Assembly: GCA_030837625.1 (NCBI GenBank)
Contig: JAUPKF010000010.1
Location: 1-37,360 of the forward strand
Origin: Patescibacteria group bacterium
GTDB lineage: Bacteria; Patescibacteriota; Minisyncoccia; Moranbacterales; UBA2206
Direction of reading: 5' to 3'
Length of the DNA stretch: 37,360 nt
Made by a program: the position numbers and the translations under genes. The notes under the pieces are model-generated. The model searched no databases. It was not told the origin of the DNA and saw only the letters and a list, made by a program, of their open reading frames with translations. Within the stretch, counting starts at the first letter, position 1, and every line of letters begins with the position of its first letter. Positions 16,189 to 21,757 of the stretch are shown here, in pieces.

Positions 16189-16265
16189 TGGCGGGGACGA
16201 CCGGACTCGAACCGGCGACCTACTGCGTGACAGGCAGTCGCTCTAACCAGCTGAGCTACGCCCCC
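16189..16265 (-). tRNA. tRNA-Asp (GUC), CCA encoded
   Basis: A complete cloverleaf: acceptor GGGGGCG with CGTCCCC, D-stem GCTC/GAGC, anticodon stem ACTGC/GCAGT with loop CTGTCAC (anticodon GUC), T-arm GCCGG-TTCGAGT-CCGGT, discriminator G and encoded CCA. It is the last gene of the tRNA operon and the only one here with CCA in the DNA. Confidence 0.97.
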
Positions 16266-16275
16266 AGAACCTTCG

Positions 16276-16463
16276 TACCAGGGGTGGGGATCGAACCCAC
16301 GAACCTCAGCGTTACTCGCCCCTTCACCAAAACACCGTACCGGGAGTGAGATTCGAACTCACGACCCCAGGCTTATGAGTCCTGTGCTCTAACCAACTGA
16401 GCTATCCCGGCCTTTTGGTGAGGGGGTGAATGCTTGCGCTCTAACCAACTGAGCTACCCTGGC
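16276..16463 (-). tRNA. Interrupted tRNA: two halves around a nested tRNA(CAU)
   Basis: The 5' half (16463-16432) has acceptor GCCAGGG, TA, D-arm GCTC...GAGC and anticodon-stem strand CAAGC. The 3' half (16310-16276) has GCTG, a variable loop, T-arm GTGGG-TTCGATC-CCCAC, acceptor CCCTGGT and discriminator A. The two acceptor strands pair over all seven positions (one G-U), which argues that they were one tRNA. The anticodon stem pairs with one bulged A. About 121 bases (16311-16431) lie between the halves at the anticodon-loop position, bounded by complementary 14-base arms (16319-16332 and 16413-16426, 13 matches) and containing a whole tRNA(CAU). I cannot read an anticodon, so this may be a pseudogene, an intron-like arrangement or a composite structural RNA. 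Confidence 0.5.
16338..16411 (-). tRNA. tRNA with CAU anticodon (elongator Met, or Ile2)
   Basis: Acceptor GCCGGGA pairs with TCCCGGT (G1-U72 wobble), D-stem GCTC/GAGC, anticodon loop CTCATAA (CAU), T-arm GTGAG-TTCGAAT-CTCAC, discriminator A, no encoded CCA. The anticodon stem CAGGA/GCCTG has an A-G mismatch at its last pair. Elongator Met and lysidine-modified Ile2 share this anticodon and cannot be separated by eye. It lies wholly inside the interrupted tRNA at 16276-16463. Confidence 0.85.
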
Positions 16464-16564
16464 TTTTTTAGTATTTAGTATTAAGTAGTTGGTATTTAGT
16501 ATTAATAAAAATACCGTAGCGCAAATACCAGATACAAAATACTATATACCAGATACTAAACAAG
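16464..16564. repeat. Word-repeat spacer between initiator tRNA and interrupted tRNA
   Basis: The left part repeats TAGTATTTAGTATTA and GGTATTT, the right part AAATACCAGATAC and ATACTATATACCAGATACTA, forming a loose inverted repeat around ACCGTAGCGC. The same words occur in frame in ligA at about 21324-21352. Confidence 0.65.
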
Positions 16565-16638
16565 TTGCGGGGGCCGGATTCGAACCGGCGACCTCGTGGT
16601 TATGAGCCACGCGAGCTGCCAGACTGCTCTACCCCGCT
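16565..16638 (-). tRNA. Initiator tRNA-fMet (CAU)
   Basis: The sequence follows bacterial initiator tRNA closely: GCGGGG/CCCCGC acceptor with unpaired A1-A72 (initiator hallmark), D-arm GAGCAGTCTGGCAGCTC, anticodon stem CGTGG/CCACG with loop CTCATAA, and T-arm GCCGG-TTCGAAT-CCGGC. Only two of the usual three G-C pairs precede the loop (the third is T-A). CCA is not encoded. It is the first gene of the tRNA operon, about 10 bases after the predicted start site. Confidence 0.95.

Positions 16639-19395: not shown

Positions 19396-21757
<2,362 letters not shown>

Follow-up and report, generated by a model that had tools for sequence, protein, structure and literature searches.

The native elongator tRNA-Met gene of an ultra-small bacterium of the order Moranbacterales (Patescibacteria) has probably been killed and replaced by an inserted inverted-repeat cassette that carries a cognate tRNA, in a process that recurs within this order. 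The gene lies in a stretch of 37,360 nucleotides (the window), which is contig 26 of an assembly of 0.97 Mb and 98.5% completeness (G000). It is one member of a class of nested tRNA genes, or nests, that spans many isotypes and is framed by inverted repeats of a dispersed family. By common expectation, an essential single-copy tRNA gene is a target that can hardly be touched; here such genes appear to have been broken repeatedly, with the replacement arriving within the break. If this is true, it would provide a simple route for swapping essential RNA genes between species, would explain the unusual tRNA repertoires of Patescibacteria and would offer a testable example of a selfish element that persists because it brings along a spare for the gene that it ruins. 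It would also mean that tRNA annotation in Patescibacteria can miss interrupted genes and relics.

Anatomy of the nested tRNA-Met gene

The locus comprises the following features, given in the order of transcription.

16564..16638, minus strand: initiator tRNA-fMet, the upstream gene of the conserved fMet / Met / Asp cluster
16427..16463, minus strand: 5' half of the outer tRNA-Met, GCCAGGGTAGCTCAGTTGGTTAGAGCGCAAGCATTCA; native, now probably dead, ending at anticodon nt 35 (...GCATTCA)
16413..16426, minus strand: 5' inverted-repeat arm, CCCCCTCACCAAAA, which belongs to the dispersed CCCCNCACCAAAA family
16337..16411, minus strand: inner complete elongator tRNA-Met(CAU), the sole intact elongator tRNA-Met found in the assembly
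16319..16332, minus strand: 3' inverted-repeat arm, TTTTGGTGAAGGGG, paired with the 5' arm at 13 of 14 positions
16315..16318, minus strand: CGAG tail from the 3' arm to the outer 3' half; in other anticodon-loop insertions GGGGC(A/G)AG
16276..16314, minus strand: 3' half of the outer tRNA-Met, TAACGCTGAGGTTCGTGGGTTCGATCCCCACCCCTGGTA, from anticodon nt 36 (TAA...) to the discriminator base
16189..16265, minus strand: tRNA-Asp(GUC), the downstream gene of the cluster

The first-pass annotation had described a complete tRNA(CAU) inside the anticodon loop of another tRNA, and we confirm both outer halves and the arms. An intact elongator tRNA-Met(CAU) (16411-16337) is set between 14-nt arms (CCCCCTCACCAAAA, 16426-16413, and TTTTGGTGAAGGGG, 16332-16319), whose complementarity had been noted before, and the break can now be placed between nt 35 and 36 of the outer anticodon (TTCA^TAA). 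The acceptor strands of the outer gene (GCCAGGG/CCCTGGT) pair at all seven positions, again as first described. Without the insert, the joined outer halves give a readable tRNA-Met(cat) with one extra A in its anticodon stem. ARAGORN and Rfam report only the inner tRNA at the nest (16337-16411, minus strand, 68.5 bits). The first-pass annotation had also held that the transcript can fold as a tRNA with an extended anticodon arm topped by a second tRNA, and folding agrees with this: the predicted fold of the 201-nt RNA of the whole nest pairs the outer acceptor, the T-arm and the arms, and is more stable than 200 of 200 shuffles (z -4.0). Between fMet and the nest (window 16468-16560) there are AT-rich repeats (AGTATTTAGTATTAA, ATACCAGATACAAAA); Met clusters of other genomes have similar stretches nearby.

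Origin and decay of the outer gene

The fMet - Met - Asp cluster recurs across Moranbacterales, with an intact Met gene between fMet and Asp in G011 and an intact Met gene ahead of Asp in G008 and G023. The joined outer of the window nest shares 94% identity with these Met genes of G008 and G023, which belong to the same family. The inner tRNA is 95% identical to the tRNA-Met of G073, a member of another family, which suggests that it may have come from another lineage as far as 75-nt sequences can tell; the length of a tRNA does not support firm trees. The identity between outer and inner is 79%. A pseudogene made by duplication, one of the first-pass proposals, is thus half right: the outer gene is a pseudogene, and duplication fits poorly with this divergence and with best matches in different families.

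Apart from the inner gene, we found no intact elongator tRNA-Met in the G000 assembly; fMet is separate and tRNA-Ile2(CAU) lies elsewhere, on contig 23. An outer gene of another isotype (for example Ile2) that needs splicing is ruled out, as the joined outer is an elongator-type Met(CAU) and Ile2 was found elsewhere. Neither tRNA-Thr nor tRNA-Tyr was found in the G000 assembly even at E<=10, perhaps because the assembly lacks them or because they are interrupted.

A second nest of G000, that of Val(CAC), can be compared in the same manner. Uninterrupted Val(CAC) genes adjoin Ala(GGC) in G006, G009 and G011 and have the acceptor stem of the G000 Val(CAC) outer (GGACGAT; GGATGAT in G009). The inner Val(CAC) has a different acceptor stem (GGGTGTT...AATACCC), which is found on Val(GAC) in the relatives G017 and G027. 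The Val(CAC) nest repeats the logic of the Met nest, with a native outer and a different inner.

The first-pass annotation had proposed a search for the same arrangement in related genomes, and it is found there: G003, G010, G020 and G043 share the insertion site and the arms of the window nest, and the same junction is present in the Moranbacteria/Moraniibacteriota MAGs CG06_land_8_20_14_3_00_40_12, LacPavin_0818_WC55_MAG_41_28 and RIFOXYA12_FULL_44_15. Assembly error is unlikely because independently assembled MAGs share the same junctions; the genomes compared are probably mostly MAGs. At this locus most relatives have a plain Met gene, and G020, whose Met nest is three-layered, has congeners (G009, G024, G026, G028 and G030) with a complete Met gene and no nest. 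In G001, of the same genus as G000, the 5' half, the 5' arm and the intact inner Met are kept, the 3' arm and the 3' half are gone, and the outer 5' half has itself been struck by a D-loop palindrome. In G003, G010 and G043, which share the insertion point TTCA^TAA of the window nest, further inserts break the outer D-arm or T-loop, and in G043 only 8 of 14 arm positions pair. As the outer halves are lost or broken in relatives, the function of the outer gene has not been maintained.

This decay bears on the suggestion of a composite RNA, in which the outer frame and the paired arms would act as a clamp that the inner tRNA needs in order to be processed or to remain stable. The predicted fold, which pairs the outer acceptor, the T-arm and the arms, counts in its favour. 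Nonetheless, the plain Met gene of most relatives, the eroded arm pairing of G043, the arm lost in G001 and the independent decay of the outer halves make a functional composite highly improbable.

Replacement by an inserted cassette, the favoured reading, would proceed as follows. A small cassette (arms CCCCNCACCAAAA / TTTTGGTGNGGGG) with a complete tRNA-Met would enter the native gene between anticodon nt 35 and 36, presumably moving as a unit. The resident tRNA gene would die, the cargo tRNA would substitute for it at once and the host would survive; as the cargo is a divergent tRNA of the same isotype, insertion would cost the host little. The three tRNAs of the fMet-Met-Asp cluster probably share one transcript, from which the inner tRNA-Met could be released by ordinary 5' and 3' processing. 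The outer halves would be left as a relic, free to decay and to be struck again, and the new gene would become a possible next target. The same process would recur across isotypes, with loops of resident tRNAs interrupted by cassettes, each bearing a same-isotype but divergent tRNA. The material examined revealed no transposase, recombinase or donor copy.

Nested tRNA genes of many isotypes

G000 holds at least seven full nests, of Met, Val GAC, Val CAC, Pro CGG, Pro GGG, Arg GCG and Arg TCG, as well as half-nests of Lys TTT and Glu CTC. Beside that of Met, the insertions lie in the D-loop (Val GAC and Val CAC), the anticodon loop (Pro CGG and Arg TCG), the end of the D-arm (Pro GGG) and the T-loop (Arg GCG). 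Related genomes contain many more nests in D-, anticodon and T-loops, including at least those of Leu, Val, Gly, Ile, Ala, Arg, Ser and Thr in G039 and at least those of Leu, Gly, Lys, Phe, Glu, Ala, Ser, Pro and Thr in G049; three-layer nests are present in G020 and G039. In all nests seen, inner and outer lie on the same strand, and nothing pointed to an invertible or phase-variable segment. The two Val cassettes, both on contig 23 of G000, share arms, acceptor stem and T-arm and differ in their anticodon arms, which fit the respective targets; this suggests that the cassettes may have recombined with each other.

Paired arms around tRNA genes exceed expectation. At an arm score of at least 11 they flank 5 of 40 tRNAs in G000, compared with 3 of 1560 mismatched pairings. 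At a score of at least 12 they flank 30 of 460 tRNA loci and 22 of 6000 random flank pairings; some of the 460 loci had been fetched for carrying the arm, which overstates the frequency of the excess and not its reality, and the per-genome figures are less biased. The excess is weaker in G049 (4/37 versus 36/1332 at score 11), where the control is raised because many tRNAs carry the same arm sequence and where the relics carry the argument. Relics of tRNA-Met, -Asp and -fMet also stand beside intact copies at L021, L031, L038, L171 and other loci, with GC-rich palindromes exactly in the relic loops (D-loop TT^GG, anticodon CA^TAA, T-loop).

In four of the seven G000 nests (Met cat, Val gac, Pro ggg and Arg tcg) the joined outer reads with the anticodon of the inner, so that the sequence leaves room for splicing of young outers; where the insert is in a T-loop, the extent of the native loop is not clear-cut, and an unreadable joined outer is weak evidence alone. 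These readable outers, together with the anticodon-loop site and the long paired arms of the Met nest, are what speaks for an intron-like insert, as the first-pass annotation had considered, which would be cut out with the inner tRNA while the outer halves are joined, giving two tRNAs from one locus. We regard this as very unlikely. Each outer half decays on its own (G001 lacks the 3' half; the D-arm or T-loop is broken in G003, G010 and G043), which the annotation itself had named as evidence against its proposal, and in these four carriers they are not conserved as the exons of a functional tRNA. Insertions also occur in D- and T-loops and have no common splice motif, and a second product with the anticodon of the inner would be redundant.

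Real introns in the same genome give a further comparison. A group I intron (71.3 bits) occupies the anticodon loop of tRNA-Ile(CAU) on contig 23 (28355-28561; L044 1700-1906), and because of this interruption tRNA finders miss the gene. The 23S rRNA has two further group I introns above the cut-off, one on contig 21 and one on contig 13; a fourth match, adjacent to that of contig 13, falls below it. Whereas RF00028 thus finds real introns elsewhere in G000, neither it nor other intron families give a match at E<=10 in 16270-16470, the stretch with the Met nest.

The inner tRNA is cognate to the gene that it interrupts. In 28 of 31 nests the best match of the outer flanks among all tRNAs collected shares the amino acid of the inner, an upper figure because in a few nests a nearby tRNA of that kind adds to the match (as for Arg in L041), and in 21 of 31 it shares the anticodon. 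Permutation of the labels (10,000 trials) gave a mean of 2.9 and a maximum of 10 amino-acid matches among the 31. Selection may keep only cognate cargo. Targeting, however, is where this account is weakest: random insertion filtered by survival should leave tRNA cassettes at neutral sites as well, and essentially none were found outside tRNA genes, which points to target-guided insertion or to acquisition of the cargo on site.

Agreement in isotype and near absence from neutral sites would be easiest to explain if the cargo derived from its target, that is, if the inner had been copied in place from the outer when a palindrome that had entered the gene was aberrantly repaired. A few pairs do share nearly their whole body (G081 Arg GCG). 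For most outers, however, tRNAs of other genomes give a higher score than the inner of the same nest, which counts against simple local duplication; the Met outer and inner are 79% identical in G000 and 67% in G027, and the inner is nearer to other families. Local duplication is therefore unlikely, though the least so of the alternatives considered here.

For replacement by cassettes, a more specific form can be proposed, to which we give somewhat less than an even chance: the inserts may be 'insert and rescue' micro-elements, that is, inverted-repeat cassettes of ~100-150 bp with a tRNA as sole cargo, aimed at loops of same-isotype tRNAs and rescuing the essential single-copy genes that they invade. 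Repeated rounds would let dead tRNA genes pile up as nested dolls, as in the three layers of G020 and G039.

A homing endonuclease could drive such replacement and would complement rather than contradict it: LAGLIDADG or GIY-YIG enzymes would cut tRNA loops, and the cassette would be a recoded, cut-resistant rescue copy. Many homing endonucleases reside in rRNA genes of CPR bacteria (PMC11270868). At L033 and L116, a 5' relic of tRNA-Asp is followed by a small GIY-YIG ORF (the Pfam assignment covers the ORF of L033) and then by an intact tRNA-Asp, an arrangement that resembles a homing element regenerating its target, and in G042 a weak LAGLIDADG_3 match comes right after the outer 3' half. 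Against this stands a motif scan for LAGLIDADG and GIY-YIG ORFs near nests, which found few and none at the window nest, and we consider such a driver rather unlikely, slightly more so than local duplication.

Inverted-repeat arms and known elements

The arms of the window nest belong to a dispersed repeat family. The CCCCNCACCAAAA arm occurs in 40 of 124 Moranbacterales genomes, frequently as two facing copies separated by 30 to 220 bp; nest-rich genomes have 8-11 sites, with 11 in G042, 10 in G031 and 8 in G039, and none in each of these for a reversed-pattern control. Elements without a tRNA lie in protein genes or intergenic DNA, so that copies with matching terminal inverted repeats are dispersed over unrelated loci (protein genes, intergenic DNA and tRNA genes), as in MITE-like elements. 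Eight elements in protein genes have lengths divisible by 3 and keep frames of 188-348 aa open, reading PHTK...FGVG. The 23S rRNA of G000 (L364 and L366; contigs 21 and 13) holds inverted-repeat inserts with nest-like arms (CACCCCTTCACCATTTT..., CCGCCGCACCAATTTT...), and other nests have other arms that are still paired (CCCCGTTGCACTTTA in G038, CCCCGTACCACTTTT and CCCCGTCACTTAT in G000). The motif CCCCGCACCA resembles a tRNA acceptor end with CCA, and the arms may conceivably descend from tRNA 3' ends.

Inserts in anticodon loops mostly start with TTCA-CCCC and end with GGGG-C(A/G)AG, and those in D-loops start with CTTG or CTCG and end with TGAA or TAAA, as if one asymmetric element had been inserted in two orientations. 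By-eye reading of the nests gave no consistent target-site duplication, and among the paired arm sites of the 124-genome scan no parent element was recognised. A phylum-wide search with a 17-base form of the arm matched 7 of 380 genomes, near the control level, a search that nests with other arm sequences would escape; outside Moranbacterales there is a clear Gly(CCC) nest in G256 and a Met half-nest in G376. The pattern thus centres on Moranbacterales but extends beyond the order. The exact window pattern was unmatched in IMG/VR, and a phage origin was rejected, as two IMG/VR matches of a related arm are without a recognisable tRNA nest and look unrelated. A Lewinella match in the collection scan was discarded, there being no tRNA present.

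We found no description, in the open-access literature, of cognate tRNA genes nested in tRNA genes or of tRNA inserts in CPR bacteria. One close parallel in behaviour, and in behaviour only, is with the Rickettsia palindromic elements (RPEs), which like the nest family are short, dispersed, bounded by inverted repeats and inserted in frame in conserved protein genes, as eight of the elements here are, and also in RNA genes; RPEs have been reported in tmRNA and RNase P RNA genes (PMC2229807). The nest family differs in its lineage and in its variable interior, and many of its copies contain an entire cognate tRNA and take the place of the host gene; that report describes nothing of the kind for RPEs.

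The IVSs of 23S rRNA are excised by RNase III and leave the RNA fragmented but working (PMC11270868). Nests resemble them as stem-forming inserts in loops of structured RNAs, a likeness seen in stem and location, and elements with similar arms are present in the 23S rRNA of G000; in nests, by contrast, the host tRNA is apparently dead and the cargo tRNA would work instead. Group I introns use the same place in the anticodon loop, as in tRNA-Ile(CAU) of G000, but the nest has neither a ribozyme core nor an Rfam intron match, its cargo is a tRNA and its outer exons decay. Integrative elements that enter tRNA genes bring along the missing end of the gene at one att site and so restore it. They and the nests have in common that tRNA genes are targeted and that the cell is left with a working tRNA; the nest differs in that a complete, divergent tRNA lies inside a broken one and that the cassette holds no integrase. 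Elsewhere in the window (19396-21720), the gene for LigA, the NAD-dependent DNA ligase, seems to hold low-complexity repeat inserts, for example TCPERSRR.
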